A stretch of DNA of 64,000 nt from the IMG/VR virus record IMGVR_UViG_3300013233_000235, positions 1-64,000 of that record. One strand, 5' to 3'. This DNA comes from a virus. The translations under genes were made by a program, and so were the position numbers. The notes under the pieces were generated by a model that saw only the letters and a program-made list of their open reading frames with translations, made no database searches and had not been told where the DNA came from. This document shows positions 17,048 through 63,902 of this stretch, piece by piece. Position 1 is the stretch's first letter; each line of letters begins with the position of its first letter.

Positions 17048-18682
17048 ATGAGACTAGAAAAGATCCCCTTCAATATCAAGTACCTGTCGACGGATAGGGC
17101 ACGCATACGCGGCATACTCCCTGTAACTGTGCTGGATATGTACCAGAGTAATAGCGGTGAGTTGCACCCGCAGGGGTTATACTCCAACGAAGTATTCGGT
17201 AGGGTGGGCACGCCCGAGCGCAATACCCGCCATGGCCTGCTTAATACCCGGGCTACATTCTTACACCCAAAAACCTTTGAGGAGCTGAAACGCTTAAAAG
17301 GTTTGTATGCCGACGTGATGGCCGGTAGGGTGTTCGCTAAGTGGGATAATAAGGTTAAGGATTTTACCAAGAGTGATGTCCTTGATGGCGAGACCGGGTA
17401 CTCTTTCTTTATGTCCCATTACGGGGATCTTAAGCTTCGTAGAAACGCATCGGCTAAAAGGGACCTCCGGATTGATGTGGTTAATAAGTACCGTAATGGT
17501 TCCGACATATACGACTACTTACCGATATGGCCAGCGGGCCTCAGGGACGTTAAACCCGATGCGGATGGCCGACCCATTGAGGAAGACATCAATAAGATTT
17601 ACAGACGTATCTTGATGCTCTCTAACAGTGTGTCATCAACTCTGATCGGTACCGAAGACCCAGCGCTAGATAGAACACGCTGGAGCTTACAGGCGGCTAT
17701 TCAAGATTTGTGGGATTACTTTATCGCGTTTAACGGCGGGAAGAACGGATTCTTTCAAGCCAAGTGGGGTAGCCGCAAGGTCGTATACGGCACCACCAAT
17801 GTAATCACATCCATGGATACCGCCACCGATGATCTAGATGGCTCCAGGTCCATTGACCTGACGACCACCATGGTTGGGTTACACCAGTACATGAAATTCA
17901 CCGAACCAATGTTCGTTGACTGGGCCATCCCCTCCGGTATAATGAGAGATGTGATTGAGACTATCTCCAATAGCCCTAGACTCATTAACACTAAAACGCT
18001 AAAACTAGAGCCCGTCGATCTGGGTGAGTATGAGCGAGTGGCATGGGGAACTGCCAAGGGGCGGTCAGGATTGATCGATCATTATAAGGATCTGGGTGTC
18101 CGCCATAAGCCCATGATGATAGGTAAGCATTACGCGGCTCTAATTTACAGAACTCGTAAGAATCTTAAAGTGTTTAGGGATATCGATTCCATACCAGATC
18201 ACATCGATAAGAGTATGGTCAGGCCTATCACTTGGGCTGAGTATATGTACTACGAGGCGTTCCAGTATAACGGGAGGATAAACGCTTTCGTTAACCGGTA
18301 CCCCATCACCGGTGATGGGTCGGTGTACATCGCCAGCGTGTACTTAAAAACAACTGTTAAAGGGGAGAGACTAAGAGTTCTAGATGACCAATGGCGTCCC
18401 AACCTAACTGAGTTGGAATACCCTGAGTTCCCGGATACGGCTAATGAGGCCGCATTCATGGATACCTCCAGCCCCCACTTAAGTCAGCTGCTACCACTGA
18501 ATGCCGATTTCGATGGCGACCGCAGCAGTACAACCGCTGTTATGTCCGAAGAAGCTGTCGCCGAGGCAAGAGAGCGATTAGATTCTATCGAGACATATCT
18601 AACGCCAAGTGGTACATTGCGACAACTGAGTAGCAATGACCTATCCAACTGGGTATTCCGTAACTTCACTGGTTTTAGATAA
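17048..18682 (+). CDS. Virion RNA polymerase beta-prime subunit, N-terminal half
   Basis: A 544-residue protein with NADFDGD at residues 485-491, the absolutely conserved motif whose three aspartates hold the catalytic magnesium in multisubunit RNA polymerases. The text before it (around 420-484) fits the double-psi barrel region. The length and the adjacent beta-like gene match phiKZ gp180, part of the polymerase packaged in the virion and injected to transcribe early genes. The remaining beta-prime half with the trigger loop is not next to it, as expected for the split arrangement in phiKZ (gp80). The start is ATG 17048 after AAGG. It likely reads the TATATAAC promoters found later in this window. 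Confidence 0.9.
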   Translation: MRLEKIPFNIKYLSTDRARIRGILPVTVLDMYQSNSGELHPQGLYSNEVFGRVGTPERNTRHGLLNTRATFLHPKTFEELKRLKGLYADVMAGRVFAKWDNKVKDFTKSDVLDGETGYSFFMSHYGDLKLRRNASAKRDLRIDVVNKYRNGSDIYDYLPIWPAGLRDVKPDADGRPIEEDINKIYRRILMLSNSVSSTLIGTEDPALDRTRWSLQAAIQDLWDYFIAFNGGKNGFFQAKWGSRKVVYGTTNVITSMDTATDDLDGSRSIDLTTTMVGLHQYMKFTEPMFVDWAIPSGIMRDVIETISNSPRLINTKTLKLEPVDLGEYERVAWGTAKGRSGLIDHYKDLGVRHKPMMIGKHYAALIYRTRKNLKVFRDIDSIPDHIDKSMVRPITWAEYMYYEAFQYNGRINAFVNRYPITGDGSVYIASVYLKTTVKGERLRVLDDQWRPNLTELEYPEFPDTANEAAFMDTSSPHLSQLLPLNADFDGDRSSTTAVMSEEAVAEARERLDSIETYLTPSGTLRQLSSNDLSNWVFRNFTGFR

Positions 18683-18693
18683 GGACCAATTAG

Positions 18694-21600
18694 ATGTTAA
18701 AGTTCGATGCTTTTAAAAAGAAGTGGATGGCCCGCACTGTGGCCCAAATTAAGACTCGGCCACTAGCCAAGCTGGGGGAAATCACCGCCCCCCAATATAC
18801 ACACCTACACTACTTTACGGATTCACAGACCGACTATGGTATCCGGTCATCAAACCCATTCTTAATAGGTTTTGATAAGTCTATCCGCATCCAACACACC
18901 ACCGAGTTAGTGCAGACCTTGGGTAAGCCCACCCAGGTTCGGACAAGTGTGCCAAGCATGGTCAAGGCCTTTTTAAAGTCCCGTCCTAAAAACTTCCGTA
19001 AGGTGACAGATCTTGAGAAGAACCTTAAGGATAAATCGTCAATAACGGTCACGGATTACAGCCTGATCAGCCACCTCTACAAGTATCCAGTCAACCGTCT
19101 CAGTGGTTACTACAAACACGCCAACCTCTTTGCCACGGTGTCTGAGAATATAAACCAGGTTGGTAGTCGTCGGAATCAGTTCCTTAATACACCGGTGCCC
19201 ACCAAGTTACCTGACTTTAAGCGGATGATTATCTTAGAGGAAAGTAAACCCGGCACCTACGTTAAAGAGATGTCTGATCCAGACCTCCTCAATATACTGG
19301 AGTTGTTTAAAATCATCTCGGCTGCCGCCGAGGGGATGGCTAGTGAGATAAATGTCAAAGGTTTGGAGCATCTAACCTGGGTGTTCAATGCGAACGGTGC
19401 ATGCATGCTTTTACATATGTCGGATGTGATGTTGTGGGCTATGGATAACCCCACCCTTCTGAAGCGTAACATCCACGAGCGCTTAGAGATCATGTCCTCG
19501 GATATGCGCCACAATGAGACTGACAATGATGACGAGGTTACCGATGTTGGCGACCCTTCTCTAGATACGGTCGACGATATTGCCGAGAACTCTATTGGGG
19601 CTATTGGCGTTAAGTCTAAAGCCGACGCGCTCCTGGCCAGTGGTAGATTGACAATTGCCCAGCGTGACCGACTGGTAGCAAAGGCCGATAGTTATAAAAA
19701 GATACCCGACCCACACGGTGGCACGGGCACGCTTGTGGACACTATGCATATTGAGGCTACCACCCTGGCCGTCACACCAGATGGTGGTAAAATGCCCGAT
19801 AAGCTATTTGTCGTCGATAAGTCTATGTTGTCTAGTAGTATCGATTACATGAGTAAGAACTACGTGCGTAATTTAATGAAGGCTGACATAGCCCGAGGCA
19901 TCCTACATGTACAGAAGGGCGGTGTAATCGTGAGTGACGTTAGGATCGAGCGTAAGCGCGATGCACTTAACGTCATCGACACATACGTCGTTAAGCTGGA
20001 ACCGGTGGATGGGGTGGTGAGCACCGTGCGGCTACCCATCCCCGTGGTAACCGAAAATGGGACTTTCCGTGTTAGCGGGGTTGAATACCGTATGGATCCA
20101 CAGCGTGTGGATTTACCCATCCGTAAAACTGGCCCGGAATCCGTGGCCCTGACCAGCTACATATCCAAAGTGTTCCTGCGCCGTACCCCGAGGGCTTCGG
20201 CCAACTACCGGCTATGGTTGACTAAACTGGTTATTGTAACCAGTATGGATAGAGAAGATAAACGGTTAACATCGTTAACGCCTGCCGATACAATCCTGCC
20301 TAAAGTCAAGTTACCACGCTCATACGCAGCACTGTGTCCAACCATACTCCGGTTCAAAGCCTCTGGCCGTAGTTACTTCTTTAATTACGATGCCCGTAAT
20401 GAGGAATTTGGTGCGGCACAGGTGTCGGCTGCTGAGAAAGGTGGTTACGTAGCATGTGGCACACACGGTAAAGGTCTTGTGGTCATGGATATGGATGATA
20501 ATCTTTACGATTACTCCGGTGGCAAACACGTGTTAGTGGGCCCATTCTCCCCGAACATGATGAAAGACATGCCCACCCCGCCCGTGGAATACGTCGAAGT
20601 CGGCATATTTGGAAAACACATCCCCCTTGGTCCGGCTATGGCATCTATCATCGGGTTGGAGAAGTTGCTTAAGGTTAAGAAAATCCAGCATCGGTGGTCA
20701 GATGCTGGTAAGCGCGTAGACATGACACCCAGCGAGTTCAGGATTCGTTTCCAGGACGAGTCGTTGATCGTAGATTCCCACGACTATAACGCGCGGTTAC
20801 TCATCGGGGGCTTTCTGGCTATAAAGAAGACCACTGTACTGTACCCCGCTGGTGAGTTTAACAAGAGTCCGATCTATTCATTGGCTTTCGAGAACATCAA
20901 CGTGGGCCGATACATAGGCCGTGAGTTTGAGAGTATGTATAGCTCCTGGGTGGACCACCTTACCGAGGAGACTCTCATCGAGATGGGTGAGCCAACCACG
21001 TTTGAAGGTCTTCTATACAGATCTGTGGACCTTATGTCTGATGACCAGTGGTCTGACGAGATGGATCCTACCTTTATGCGCACCAGGGGTTATGAACGCA
21101 TCGCTGGTTTTGTTATTAACCAGTTTAGTAAAGCCATGCGCGAGCAGGCTAGCAACCCTATGCGTTCGAAGGTGCCGGTATCTTTCCCACCTCGCCAGCT
21201 GTTAACCGACATTGTTGCCGATCAGTCGGTAGTGCTGGTGGAGGAGTCTAACCCAGTACATGCCCTCAAGGAAGCTGAGGCTGTAACCTTTACCGGCCAG
21301 GGTGGTCGCAGCCCCCAGACCATGGTCAAGTCTAGCCGCGTGTTTCATGACAACGATGTGGGTGTCATATCCGAGTCAACCCCTGATAGCAGTAAAGTTG
21401 GTATTCGGTCTTACCGGTCACCAAACGCCCTATATACGGGTATGCGTGGCACGACCCGTAGATTTAAACCCGAGACGGACGGTTGGGCGTCGCTGCTGTC
21501 GTCGGCCGCGTTATGTAGCCCGGGGTCTACCCACAACGATCCCAAACGTATTAACCTCTCAGATGTCCAATGGTCGGCGATGGTGTCAGCGGCCGGTGGG

Positions 21601-23025
21601 GCGCTCATGCCTGTGCGCACCGGTGGTGACATGGTTGTGGCAAATAGGGGTGGGGATGAGTTCGCTTATCCAGCCAGGGCTGATGGGGTGGTTGTCAAGG
21701 TTGTTGATGATGCTATCACTATCCTGTACGACGTCACAGTCAGATACCAGTCTGGTTATCGGGTGTTATCGGGTGATGTTATCTACGATGGTAACGCGTT
21801 GTGGAGATCTGTACACACAGCAACACCGGGTCAGGCACTTGTGTCGGAGCTATCCAAGTTACCGACACTGAAGTCTAATGAGAAAGTTACCGGTGAGGGT
21901 GTGATTATCATCGGACCTGTAAATGGCGTCAGCACATTACTGGCTGGATCGGGTGTGTTGGCTATGATGGCTAAATCTGGTGCCGAGTCATTACCGGCAT
22001 ATGCGGTGACCCCCACACAGGTTGAAGAAGCCATCGTTAAGTCCACCAGTAAACTTGCATCTAAGGGTGCCCTTTATAGTAAAGCCGATACATCCGGTCT
22101 ATCAAGATCTGTTGAGCTTGGCACTCACCACGGTAAGGCCGGTGGATCGGTTATACCCCAGACCATGATCACTGATCATAAGAAGGGGGATCGATTTAAA
22201 CTCGGCGACATACTGGTGTGGAATGTTAACTACTTCTCACGTGACTACCTCAACCCCGGCGGTGTTAGCCTCAGAATGGGGGTCCCCGCCAGAGTGGTGT
22301 TCATAGAGTTAACAGATACCTTTGAGGATAGCTCATCCATATCCCCCGGGTTGTCTAAGGATTTGAGCACACCTGTTAGTAAAGAACGCACTATCCTTTT
22401 GCGGTTTGATCAGGTTATTGATAACTTGGTTGCGATTGGGGATGAGGTCACCAGCTCCAGTATTTTATGCACCATTGAGGATGCCGTCACAGGTGACGTG
22501 GCTGGTGATACCCACCGGCTGACCGATCTAACCAAGCTGGCTGCTAGCATACCTAAAGCCAAGGCTGGGGGGACTGTTAGTGCGATGAGTGTGGTTTATA
22601 TGGGTGATACCAAGGATATGCACCCGTCTTTACAAAGACTGGTTAGAGCCGATAATAAAACACGTAAACGCAAGAAGGAAATACGTGGTGACGCGGACTA
22701 CCCTACAAGCGGCGAGATAAAAGAGTATAGCTTCGTCGGCGGCCAAAAGGTGACATCTGACACGTTGGCACTGACCATGTATATCGACACAGTTCTCCCA
22801 TCAGGTGTGGGGGATAAAAACTCTTTCGATACGGCTCTAAAATCCATCCCTGCCAGCGTTATGGCTGGGATACACAAAACCGAGGAGGATGGTATCCCAA
22901 TCGATGCTTACTTCAGCTATCGGTCGGCTAGTGCGCGGATTGTGTGTTCACCTGAGATAGATGGCTCCACCAATACAACGCTGATCCAACTGGGTCAGGT
23001 TCTACCAGATATGTACTTCAAATAG
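18694..23025 (+). CDS. Virion RNA polymerase beta-like subunit
   Basis: A 1443-residue protein starting 11 bases after the beta-prime gene behind AAGGA. Two blocks support a beta-subunit identity. THNDPKRINLSD (His947 onward) resembles the HDDANRALMGSN segment of cellular beta. GVGDKNSFDTALKS (Lys1375) with GGQK (Lys1352) resembles the conserved lysine pair near the active site. Order and size match phiKZ gp178. An Asp-rich insert lies near residues 270-290. Known from phiKZ: this subunit is packaged with the virion enzyme and the beta chain is divided between genes. Whether this protein spans the whole beta chain or lacks a part encoded elsewhere cannot be decided by eye. Confidence 0.82.
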   Translation: MLKFDAFKKKWMARTVAQIKTRPLAKLGEITAPQYTHLHYFTDSQTDYGIRSSNPFLIGFDKSIRIQHTTELVQTLGKPTQVRTSVPSMVKAFLKSRPKNFRKVTDLEKNLKDKSSITVTDYSLISHLYKYPVNRLSGYYKHANLFATVSENINQVGSRRNQFLNTPVPTKLPDFKRMIILEESKPGTYVKEMSDPDLLNILELFKIISAAAEGMASEINVKGLEHLTWVFNANGACMLLHMSDVMLWAMDNPTLLKRNIHERLEIMSSDMRHNETDNDDEVTDVGDPSLDTVDDIAENSIGAIGVKSKADALLASGRLTIAQRDRLVAKADSYKKIPDPHGGTGTLVDTMHIEATTLAVTPDGGKMPDKLFVVDKSMLSSSIDYMSKNYVRNLMKADIARGILHVQKGGVIVSDVRIERKRDALNVIDTYVVKLEPVDGVVSTVRLPIPVVTENGTFRVSGVEYRMDPQRVDLPIRKTGPESVALTSYISKVFLRRTPRASANYRLWLTKLVIVTSMDREDKRLTSLTPADTILPKVKLPRSYAALCPTILRFKASGRSYFFNYDARNEEFGAAQVSAAEKGGYVACGTHGKGLVVMDMDDNLYDYSGGKHVLVGPFSPNMMKDMPTPPVEYVEVGIFGKHIPLGPAMASIIGLEKLLKVKKIQHRWSDAGKRVDMTPSEFRIRFQDESLIVDSHDYNARLLIGGFLAIKKTTVLYPAGEFNKSPIYSLAFENINVGRYIGREFESMYSSWVDHLTEETLIEMGEPTTFEGLLYRSVDLMSDDQWSDEMDPTFMRTRGYERIAGFVINQFSKAMREQASNPMRSKVPVSFPPRQLLTDIVADQSVVLVEESNPVHALKEAEAVTFTGQGGRSPQTMVKSSRVFHDNDVGVISESTPDSSKVGIRSYRSPNALYTGMRGTTRRFKPETDGWASLLSSAALCSPGSTHNDPKRINLSDVQWSAMVSAAGGALMPVRTGGDMVVANRGGDEFAYPARADGVVVKVVDDAITILYDVTVRYQSGYRVLSGDVIYDGNALWRSVHTATPGQALVSELSKLPTLKSNEKVTGEGVIIIGPVNGVSTLLAGSGVLAMMAKSGAESLPAYAVTPTQVEEAIVKSTSKLASKGALYSKADTSGLSRSVELGTHHGKAGGSVIPQTMITDHKKGDRFKLGDILVWNVNYFSRDYLNPGGVSLRMGVPARVVFIELTDTFEDSSSISPGLSKDLSTPVSKERTILLRFDQVIDNLVAIGDEVTSSSILCTIEDAVTGDVAGDTHRLTDLTKLAASIPKAKAGGTVSAMSVVYMGDTKDMHPSLQRLVRADNKTRKRKKEIRGDADYPTSGEIKEYSFVGGQKVTSDTLALTMYIDTVLPSGVGDKNSFDTALKSIPASVMAGIHKTEEDGIPIDAYFSYRSASARIVCSPEIDGSTNTTLIQLGQVLPDMYFK

Positions 23026-29276: not shown

Positions 29277-29284
29277 TATATAAC
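29277..29284 (+). promoter_or_regulatory. Early promoter TATATAAC
   Basis: GAACTATATAACTTGTATG context, identical in its core to other copies. AAGAG (29292-29296) pairs with CTCTT (29307-29311) to form a hairpin just downstream, then a ribosome-binding site and ATG 29331. It resembles the TATATTAC early promoter of phiKZ. Confidence 0.75.
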
Positions 29285-43345: not shown

Positions 43346-43648
43346 ATGAATACTTACAAATTATCGTTAGCGCTGGGCCTAGATAGTAGGGGCTTCGGTA
43401 AGTTTATAGAGGTCCGTGGGGGTCGATATAGTGGCTTCTCAGTCTGGGCATTGGCGGGGCTTGCCAGGACATACATTGGTAAGTCCACAGGGTCCGCTGA
43501 CACCGTGTTGCGCAACCACTGTGGTGACCTCCTTATAGCCGGGCGTCTAAAAAATGGACAACGTTGCAAATGGTATATCCGGTCTACCGAGGTCGGTTAT
43601 AAACTAGGGTGCCCCACCTCAAACGAGGGTGCTAATGGAGTTAGATGA
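43346..43648 (+). CDS. Small protein, possible winged-helix
   Basis: A 100-residue basic protein starting at ATG 43346 after AAGGA. Residues 30-75 (a helix with WALAGLARTY, then TVLRNHCGDLLIAGRL and a strand CKWYI) could be a winged-helix fold, but this is a visual impression. Overlaps the next gene by 14 bases. A DNA-binding role is possible, not shown. Confidence 0.6.
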   Translation: MNTYKLSLALGLDSRGFGKFIEVRGGRYSGFSVWALAGLARTYIGKSTGSADTVLRNHCGDLLIAGRLKNGQRCKWYIRSTEVGYKLGCPTSNEGANGVR

Positions 43649-43994
43649 CATGGTCGCTGATTACGCGATGTTTTACCCAGCCTTCCTGATAGTTGCTGGC
43701 GTTAGTATTTTATTCGGGCTAGGCGTTGCCCTGTATGTCTGTAGGAATGTTATACCCTGTGGCGATTTTAGGGCCATGCGTAGGGCTGGGATGATCCCTA
43801 TCGATATGGACCCGGTATCTAACCGGATCATCGAGATTCGGATAGCGCTTGCTCTAAACCAGATGTCCGCAAATTCCATTGAAGAAAATGGCCACATTGT
43901 CATCAAATCCGTGGCTGTACACTGGGCCGCTAAAATCGTAAGGCTGCCCCCATCCGCCAGAGCTGAGATGCTAGCACGGCTGGAAATGATATAA
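43635..43994 (+). CDS. Membrane-anchored protein, 119 aa
   Basis: ATG 43635 overlaps the preceding gene and follows GAGGGT. One transmembrane helix (about 14-38) is followed by a soluble C-terminal part that is helical with regularly spaced Ala/Leu. Function unknown. Confidence 0.65.
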   Translation: MELDDMVADYAMFYPAFLIVAGVSILFGLGVALYVCRNVIPCGDFRAMRRAGMIPIDMDPVSNRIIEIRIALALNQMSANSIEENGHIVIKSVAVHWAAKIVRLPPSARAEMLARLEMI

Positions 43995-44017: not shown

Positions 44018-44025
44018 CATATAAC
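44018..44025 (+). promoter_or_regulatory. Early promoter CATATAAC
   Basis: TGACATATAACTAAAATG context, identical to the copy at 47687 over 17 bases. It drives the hairpin-rich transcript at about 44030-44300. Confidence 0.7.
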
Positions 44026-44103
44026 TAAAATGAATACTCATGTATAATTCTGTACATGGGTCACCTGATACCACTTATATAGGTGGTGCAGTTTGGAGTA
44101 GCT

Positions 44104-44277
44104 ATGTTAGCTTTGGATACTGACAAGGTTATGGCAATTGATTGCCGCCTTGTGTACATGGAGACCCTGCCAGAATGGCAGGGTTGTAGAAAGGTCTGCA
44201 CCATATGTGGTGCAGACACCTGCACCCTAAAGGGTGCAGACGTAATGGACCTGCGAAAGCAGGTCCATGGTGAATAG
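44104..44277 (+). CDS. Open frame across hairpin array, 57 aa
   Basis: ATG 44104 is preceded by GGAG, which supports translation. The product has a CTICGADTC cysteine cluster. But the frame lies over five consecutive hairpins and its amino acid sequence repeats because the stems do, so it may be a small structured-mRNA protein or a chance frame in a non-coding RNA. Both readings are kept. Confidence 0.4.
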   Translation: MLALDTDKVMAIDCRLVYMETLPEWQGCRKVCTICGADTCTLKGADVMDLRKQVHGE

Positions 44278-44300
44278 CCCTTCGGGGCTTTCTTTTTTTA
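44276..44300 (+). terminator. Rho-independent terminator
   Basis: AGCCC-TTCG-GGGCT followed by TTCTTTTTTT. It ends the hairpin array transcript. Confidence 0.9.
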
Positions 44301-45114: not shown

Positions 45115-45417
45115 ATGAGGGCTATGATGATTACATCAGCAAGTGGCGTGTTTGTAGCTAGATCGGCCGATGGCACGTGGGGTGTCACTGACCCCGATGG
45201 TCGGTACGAAGGGTTGGCCTGCGATACCCTATGGTTGTTTGGTAATGCCATGTTACTAACAACCACTTTCTTCATAGTGGCTGGTGGGCCGATGGTTTGG
45301 GCACCAGTGGGTGTAACGTTTGACTCTGTGGAAATAACCTGCTGTGGGGAAAGCTTCTCTGTAACAGGGTACTACGGGGTGAATACCGTCCGCTGGGTTT
45401 GTGAGGTACGCATGTGA
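45115..45417 (+). CDS. Hypothetical protein, 100 aa
   Basis: Starts at ATG 45115 or at ATG 45124/45127 a few codons later; the first would abut the hairpin. It is beta-rich with a hydrophobic middle segment (about 43-62) and several cysteines near the C-terminus. Its TGA overlaps the GTG start of the HAD gene. Function unknown. Confidence 0.6.
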   Translation: MRAMMITSASGVFVARSADGTWGVTDPDGRYEGLACDTLWLFGNAMLLTTTFFIVAGGPMVWAPVGVTFDSVEITCCGESFSVTGYYGVNTVRWVCEVRM

Positions 45418-45827
45418 GTAACTTCATTTTCTGTGACATCGATGGGGTGCTTAGGAAATACCCACACGACCACCCGCATATGGCTGTGGATGATCACACC
45501 CCGGGGAGATTGGAAACGATGCTTAGGGTACTCGATGCTAAGCTTGTTATAACGAGCAGTTGGAACTTTGGGAAAACCCCCCAGAGCATGCGCAGTGCCC
45601 TTTGGAAATTGGGTATGCAATCTAAGGTAGATTTCCTGACGAAGGATAGCGGGAATGGTAGGGCGGCTGATATAAGTGCATTTCTGGATACCCATCCAGA
45701 GGTGTCCCAGTATGCCGTATTGGATGATGATAGGGATGTGTTAAATATCCCCAATAGCTTTTTAATAGATGGCAATGTTGGGCTGTCTGATAACGATGTG
45801 GAACGGGTAGTTAAATCCTTCCGCTAA
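45414..45827 (+). CDS. HAD-family phosphatase-like protein
   Basis: A 137-residue protein with HAD motif I CDIDGVL (Asp8, Asp10), motif II TSSW (47-50) and motif III/IV LDDDRD (104-106). The short length and the ITSSW form resemble the small HAD domains found in RNA-repair 'Swiss Army Knife' proteins and in many phage proteins, which act as nucleotide or polynucleotide phosphatases. GTG 45414 is the start, in a GTGA overlap. The substrate is not known. It sits among early genes, so it might act on nucleic acid ends. Confidence 0.75.
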   Translation: MSNFIFCDIDGVLRKYPHDHPHMAVDDHTPGRLETMLRVLDAKLVITSSWNFGKTPQSMRSALWKLGMQSKVDFLTKDSGNGRAADISAFLDTHPEVSQYAVLDDDRDVLNIPNSFLIDGNVGLSDNDVERVVKSFR

Positions 45828-47686: not shown

Positions 47687-47694
47687 CATATAAC
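47687..47694 (+). promoter_or_regulatory. Early promoter CATATAAC
   Basis: TGACATATAACTAAAATG, then GATATA 47702-47707 / TATATC 47720-47725 and TGGCT 47730-47734 / AGCCA 47739-47743 hairpins before AGGAG. Confidence 0.7.
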
Positions 47695-62846: not shown

Positions 62847-63902
62847 ATGAACAAACATACATTGAGAATTTACGGCGGCGGCGGTGTTGGTGCAAACGCA
62901 TTAATCCATGGGATCAACATCCCAGAGGAATTACAAAACGCTGGTGTGTTCCCACGAACACAGGCCGTGATCCTGGACACATCGGATGCCAACATCCGCG
63001 GCATGGAAGAACAGATGCTCGATCTGGGCATCACTGCGTTCCTTGTACCCGATGCACGCGGATTTGGTAAGGACCGCACAAAGGCGTACAAGGCTATTTC
63101 ACCCCACATTGCAACCATCCTGCAAGAGAATCCTGCTGGGGATTACAACATCGTGATCGGGGGAACCTCCGGTGCCAGCGGTAGCATCTTTGCCCACTTG
63201 CTGACAATGGAGCTGCTTAAACGGGGCGAGAACGTAGTGGTTATTCTTGTCGGCTCTATCGCATCAGCCATCGAGGCCGATAGCGCCAAGAAGGTGATTG
63301 AAGGTCTTCAGGGTGCCTGCGAGTCCAGCAAACGATCTTTGCCCTTCGTGTACTTAGAGAATGCCTCGTCACCTAATGAGGATATGCCATGGCAAATGCC
63401 CCAAGGCGATGCTGATAAAGAGATTGACCGCGTGGTTGGTTATCTGGCAATGATGACCTCTGGGAACCTGACGCGTTTGGATCATCGCGATGTGAGCAAC
63501 TTCTTACACCCTGACAAGGTTGTGAAGTCCGTGCCACCCCAGCTGACCCAACTTGTCGTTGGTAAAACCAACGACGACCATTGGTCGGAATACGTTGGTA
63601 AAACCATCACCACGATGTCCGCGCGACAATCGTCCGACACTGGGATACCGGCGTTGGAGAGCTTGTATGACACCGAGGGGTTTTATAAGCCAGAGATTCA
63701 CACTGGTAACAAGCTCAGTGACGCCCTCCCATCCACGGGGTTGGAAGATCTACTACTAGCCACCACAACTAAGGATGTGGCTGCGATCTACGAACACCTA
63801 ACCGAAGTGTGTGATACATATGAATCACACGCATCCAACCTTAGCAAAGCCAGTGCCATCTCATCATCATCCGATATGGGTGGGGATTGCATGGTCCTTT
63901 AA
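62847..63902 (+). CDS. phuZ: PhuZ-like tubulin/FtsZ-family protein
   Basis: A 351-residue protein. An N-terminal glycine loop GGGGVGANA (10-18) and the tubulin-type phosphate loop GGTSGASGS (105-113) followed by a helix and the strand VVVILVG match the GTP-binding plan of tubulin, FtsZ and phage PhuZ. DTSDANI (44-50) fits the nucleotide-contacting loop between them. The polar tail with DMGGD near the C-terminus recalls the acidic tail used in PhuZ filament contacts. Known for PhuZ: GTP-driven filaments form a spindle that centres the phage nucleus and delivers capsids. The gene has its own early promoter and hairpin leader, AGGAAAG before ATG 62847. Family membership is fairly sure, orthology to PhuZ likely. 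Confidence 0.78.
   Translation: MNKHTLRIYGGGGVGANALIHGINIPEELQNAGVFPRTQAVILDTSDANIRGMEEQMLDLGITAFLVPDARGFGKDRTKAYKAISPHIATILQENPAGDYNIVIGGTSGASGSIFAHLLTMELLKRGENVVVILVGSIASAIEADSAKKVIEGLQGACESSKRSLPFVYLENASSPNEDMPWQMPQGDADKEIDRVVGYLAMMTSGNLTRLDHRDVSNFLHPDKVVKSVPPQLTQLVVGKTNDDHWSEYVGKTITTMSARQSSDTGIPALESLYDTEGFYKPEIHTGNKLSDALPSTGLEDLLLATTTKDVAAIYEHLTEVCDTYESHASNLSKASAISSSSDMGGDCMVL

Follow-up and report, generated by a model that had tools for sequence, protein, structure and literature searches.

Stem-loops at the extreme 5' end reportedly stabilise certain bacterial mRNAs, ompA and papA being the examples associated with Emory, Bouvet and Belasco. It has been described that 5' stem-loops of this kind act through blocking RppH and RNase E, enzymes that require single-stranded 5' ends (PMC3997798). 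In phages related to phiKZ, including AR9 and phiKZ itself, the layout of early promoters has been established as an AT-rich element followed by six nucleotides and a G (PMC5312081). Here we describe a short early unit of a jumbo phage, located at 44018-44300 of the window, i.e. the whole 64,000-base stretch that was analysed (bases 1-64000 of a 204,041-base IMG/VR virus record, the genome of which is labelled G000), in which hairpins are not restricted to the 5' end. The large terminase (TerL) encoded by this genome shares 37-41% identity with those of phiKZ-like jumbo phages, a PhuZ tubulin is encoded at 62847-63902 (phrog_4733, E 2.6e-52), and RNA polymerase beta-type subunits are specified by 17048-18682 and 18694-23025 (phrog_2986 and phrog_3148); judged by this gene content, G000 is a phiKZ-like, PhuZ-encoding jumbo phage with a multi-subunit RNA polymerase. 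Close relatives were found neither in phage records nor in IMG/VR or GTDB contigs (TerL identity of at most 44%), the nearest genomes being those of the IMG/VR viruses G001 (223 kb, terminase 44% identical) and G002 (196 kb, 43%), and genes in all three genomes were called with a simple caller. Downstream of TerL, G001 has kept a relative of the gene at 43629-43994, which in G000 lies upstream of the array, and the array is absent there.

The unit opens with an early promoter of the virion-RNA-polymerase type (CATATAAC-TAAAAT-G, 44018-44032, plus strand), the sequence block of which is shared with other units, and its predicted +1, inferred from the promoter layout, is the G at 44032. Around 30 units in G000 carry such a block, consisting of TATATAAC or CATATAAC followed by six nucleotides and then G. 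The preliminary description had proposed an early promoter at this position, and the agreement with promoters used by the virion RNA polymerase in phiKZ-related phages (TATATAAC-6N-G; compare PMC5312081) bears this out, although a search of IMG/VR with the exact promoter pattern returned no match. On the basis of promoter layout and phage group, the 44018 unit would be classed as a phiKZ-type virion-RNA-polymerase early unit. Two promoter classes can be distinguished: class A (AGAAC-TATATAACTnnnATG, with a leader GAAGAGAC...) accounts for some 24 units in G000, and class B, the minority, reads TCAATGA-CATATAACTAAAATG and is usually followed by a leader GATATAGGCG...TTATATC. The class B block of the 44018 unit recurs at 47687, 97272, 127787, 164398 and 198279, but this unit possesses a leader of its own.

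Nearly all predicted early transcripts begin with structure. A stem-loop lies within five bases of the predicted +1 in 29 of 30 early leaders of G000 and in 23 of 24 of G001 (52/54), the predicted starts in question including those at 29277, 44799, 46072, 46873, 47687, 61027 and 62740 of the window, about 23 more in G000 and about 24 in G001. The stems belong to several mutually unrelated sequences in these two genomes, and the mean leader energy in G001 is -5.8, as compared with -3.0 for shuffled leaders. Also encoded in this early region, at 45414-45827, is a protein whose HAD domain is of the 'Swiss Army Knife' RNA-repair type (PF18143, E 3e-14).

In the 44018 unit the array continues from the leader to the terminator (44032-44299, all elements on the plus strand). 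The 5'-terminal stem-loop H1 (44036-44061; 11 pairs, 2 of them G-U; pair probability 0.99) begins at +5 of the predicted start and is followed by a second leader hairpin, H2 (44069-44088; 8 pairs, 2 G-U; 0.90), and by a weak, imperfect helix predicted around the Shine-Dalgarno sequence and start codon (44089-44122), which is partly open (unpaired probability 0.42-0.81 across GGAG and 0.39-0.92 across AUG). Within the frame there follow the composite hairpin H4 (44123-44153; 0.91), H5 (44163-44185; 10 pairs, triloop; 0.97), H6 (44194-44217; 10 Watson-Crick pairs, tetraloop; 0.98), H7 (44220-44239; 8 Watson-Crick pairs, tetraloop; 0.985) and H8 (44245-44268; 10 Watson-Crick pairs; 0.98), and the unit ends with an intrinsic terminator, AGCCC-TTCG-GGGCT plus T tract (44276-44299, stem-loop 44276-44289), which recurs at several other G000 units. 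The seven hairpins and the terminator are each predicted at a probability of 0.86-0.99. Eight stem-loops had been described between a promoter and a terminator, several of them with perfect 8-10 bp stems and tetraloops; the count holds when the terminator is included and the weak helix over the ribosome site is left out, the perfect stems are found, the loop reported as GAAA is that of H8, and both flanking elements are present and recur at many other units of the genome.

As a whole, 44018-44300 folds at -128.2 kcal/mol, as compared with -81.9 +/- 5.5 for 200 dinucleotide shuffles (z -8.46; 0/200 as stable), these energies being thermodynamic predictions without ribosomes; the comparison with shuffled sequence that had been proposed for this locus thus yields a clear energy excess. 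Six strong hairpins are observed where 0.15 are expected, the maximum in any of 500 shuffles being two. When the whole of G000 was scanned on both strands in segments of 240 nt, the unit was the most extreme location (z about -9), with 128040 as the runner-up (z -8.9), and among G001, G002, lambda, T7 and four further jumbo phages only an intergenic array at G002 82240 (z -9.6) was stronger. The array is therefore real and confirmed. A search of Rfam up to E 1 recovered nothing, the best score of 23.4 bits comparing with a gathering cut-off of 52.

H7 is an in-frame near-copy of H6 at a spacing of 24 nt, and a 24-nt in-frame tandem repeat at 44196-44241 gives rise to both of these neighbouring hairpins as well as to an 8-residue repeat in the protein (VCTICGAD/TCTLKGAD). 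It has been proposed that the arm GGTGCAGAC, shared by these adjoining stems, allows two folds, which would be compatible with a switch, either translational or of the RNase III type, where the gene is regulated through alternative pairing of the repeated GGTGCAGAC arms in the manner of lambda cIII. The shared arm is indeed there and its copies are capable of both pairings, and the helix over the Shine-Dalgarno sequence and AUG is partly closed, as such a switch might employ. However, pairing of 44194-44202 with 44233-44241 yields -29.0 instead of -33.5 kcal/mol and is, at 4.5 kcal/mol worse, given a probability of 0.013, so that two folds at equilibrium are unsupported. In addition, the local hairpin would be the first to form in transcription, and stems of 8-11 bp would fall short of the length usual for RNase III sites. 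Regulation by such a switch is accordingly regarded as very improbable.

As had been noted in the preliminary description, the array is crossed by a 57-codon open frame (44104-44277) with its own GGAG (44095-44098); this motif lies five bases before the ATG. The codon score of the frame is higher than that of 98% of non-coding frames and falls at the 22nd percentile among true genes, its G+C content by codon position (0.56/0.40/0.54) resembles that of genes (0.55/0.42/0.55), and its stop codon overlaps the terminator stem. Moreover, all five in-frame hairpins, H4 to H8, occupy a single codon register, in which position 1 pairs with position 3 and position 2 with position 2, meaning that two thirds of the pairs include a third codon position. 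Were the frame unrelated to the stems, one register for five stems would arise with a chance of 1 in 81, with fewer independent stems to be counted if H6 and H7 represent one duplication. Compared with sequences encoding the same protein, the structure scores z -6.0 and -6.2 under genome codon usage and -4.1 and -4.2 under permutation of its own codons; the claim that there is more structure than a coding sequence needs is hence upheld, with a fold excess of z -6 relative to synonymous recodings. Homologues of the 57-aa protein were absent from IMG/VR, phage records and the genomes of the relatives, the DNA of the locus found no blastn match among phages, and AlphaFold2 applied to the single protein sequence returned no confident model (mean pLDDT 61). 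Taken together, codon usage and signal placement suggest that the frame is probably a real small early protein gene.

The alternative at this point is that the unit specifies a non-coding structured RNA, for example a decoy, sponge, scaffold or packaging RNA, and that the frame is accidental. A short unit of an abundant type with promoter and terminator, together with the extreme fold of 44018-44300, is what one would expect of such an RNA, and G002 offers a non-coding intergenic hairpin array (82193-82431, z -9.6). On the other hand, the gene-like codon use, the spacing between Shine-Dalgarno sequence and ATG, the stop at the terminator and the common register of all in-frame stems argue against an accidental frame, neighbouring coding early units have the same form, and an Rfam family is absent. 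Between the two options offered initially, a structured RNA or a small mRNA under structural control, the evidence from codon use, Shine-Dalgarno sequence, stop and register supports the mRNA, and the non-coding option, less likely, is considered improbable.

The 44018 unit is not unique, since early genes of G000, G001 and G002 are likewise packed with hairpins. Genome scans blind to 44018 identified further hairpin-packed coding sequences at 127855-128172, 95547-96287 and 97340-97942 of G000, at 175633-176442 and 182559-183428 of G001 and at 180259-180933 of G002. The G000 gene at 127855-128172 (105 aa, class B promoter) is the second most structured spot of that genome (z -8.9) and contains a 13-bp perfect in-frame hairpin, and the coding sequence at 175633-176442 of G001 (269 aa) is a chain of perfect hairpins with z -8 to -10 relative to synonymous recodings. 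Across the hairpin-packed early genes of G000 and its two relatives the structure exceeds coding need by z -3 to -10, as compared with -0.1 to -1.9 for ordinary neighbour genes. Early genes as a whole show strong hairpins in 2.3-fold (G000) and 2.4-fold (G001) excess over synonymous permutations, the values for other genes being 1.35 and 1.66, and the codon register of the 44018 frame is adopted by 22 of 30 hairpins in four hairpin-packed genes versus 343 of 914 (37%) in the genomes (p about 1e-4). Most early genes, however, are not hairpin-packed, the class A medians being z -1.5 and -0.9. G000 97340-97942 and G001 182559-183428 are distant homologues (E 5e-5), both class B and both structured, and a Pfam family was not found for the latter. 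In G002, intergenic arrays at 82193-82431 (z -9.6) and 62930-63230 (z -7.9) comprise perfect 18-21 bp hairpins with shared GACCCAGTC motifs.

Whether selection has acted on RNA or on DNA is a separate question, in that the palindromes might belong to a replication origin or to protein sites within the gene, or might derive from template-switch mutation in fast-evolving early genes, the RNA fold being a by-product. It has to be acknowledged that both strands exceed their synonymous controls to a similar degree (-6.2 versus -6.9) and that the in-frame stems are mostly pure Watson-Crick. Furthermore, in the same scan the most extreme location of lambda coincides with the origin iterons inside gene O (39001), and therefore palindromes located inside genes can function at the DNA level. 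Yet the stem sequences of the 44018 unit differ from one another, H6 and H7 excepted, and thus do not form an iteron family, several unlinked genes are affected, mostly directly behind early promoters, and the cumulative GC-skew turns near 16 and 170 kb, away from the unit. G-U pairs also have a bearing here: the sense fold of the unit contains 8 and the antisense fold 2, and its strong stems include 4 G-U pairs, in the leader stems, versus 0 A-C mismatches, although across the hairpin-packed genes the ratio of 11 to 6 is not decisive. The G-U evidence leans towards selection at the RNA level without settling RNA versus DNA, and an origin in DNA palindromes alone is viewed as somewhat unlikely.

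The best explanation, to which we assign a probability of roughly 55%, is that the 44018 unit is a monocistronic early mRNA in which RNA structure has been selected on top of the protein, with nuclease resistance as its likeliest role; both the selection at the RNA level and the resistance are what we infer. According to this proposal, the injected virion RNA polymerase would start transcription at 44032 and produce a transcript consisting of the 5'-terminal stem-loop, the second leader hairpin, the ribosome site, the 57-codon frame, whose tandem hairpins would be written mainly via synonymous codons, and the terminator. With a stem-loop closing the 5' end, a terminator that would shield the 3' end, stems of 8-11 pairs each and few single-stranded cleavage sites, the short early message may resist host ribonucleases; RNase E and RppH both act on single-stranded 5' ends, and slow decay would be expected of an RNA that is sealed at either end and has little single-stranded sequence in between. 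Several other early genes of G000 and its distant relatives share the hairpin packing, probably as a way to protect or tune the first messages.

Promoter class may add to this picture. First genes of early units with z below -3 comprise 6 of 12 in class B, 3 of 45 in class A and 3 of 44 among other genes (Fisher p about 0.002), a class B that was set by promoter sequence but post hoc, with the hairpin-packed genes already seen; a rank test supports the difference less strongly (pooled p 0.06; 0.57 for G000 and 0.04 for G001 taken singly). A bolder and rather doubtful extension would hold that the early genes of these phiKZ-like phages that are marked by class B have been selected into chains of perfect hairpins which hide the first cytoplasmic messages from host RNases and RNA-targeting defence. 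The defence concerned, by way of speculation, could be Cas13, type III CRISPR or RNase toxins, a branch of immunity against which the phage nucleus would offer no protection.

If the selection is real, these would be armoured early mRNAs, sealed from the 5' end through the body to the 3' end by short stems which the ribosome can melt but which single-strand nucleases or guide RNAs may be unable to enter. A DNA phage would then practise double coding much as RNA-phage genomes do, and the phage nucleus, which shields DNA, could be connected in a testable way with a means of shielding RNA. Hairpin packing of coding sequences was not found described in the open-licence literature on structured jumbo-phage RNAs and structured phage early mRNA. 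As a caution, a phage sequence with an extreme fold does not necessarily specify a non-coding RNA.

In comparison with known systems, the 44018 unit shares with phiKZ/AR9-type early units the AT-rich element, the six nucleotides and the G start, in a window that also encodes RNA polymerase beta-type subunits and PhuZ. As in ompA and papA, a stem-loop is placed at the 5' end, here at that of nearly every predicted early transcript, but unlike those messages the unit has hairpins running through its whole coding region as well, and stabilisation would be proposed by analogy. Lambda cIII is likewise an early phage mRNA, one whose structure lies at and around the beginning of a small gene, yet it adopts two competing folds where the 44018 unit has one dominant predicted fold. 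The lambda origin iterons in gene O also are dense inverted repeats in a coding sequence that top their scan, but they are near-identical copies acting as DNA, whereas the 44018 stems differ in sequence. Finally, GOLLD, ROOL and similar RNAs are, like the 44018 unit, highly structured and phage-encoded, and in contrast to them this unit is small, coding and without an Rfam match.
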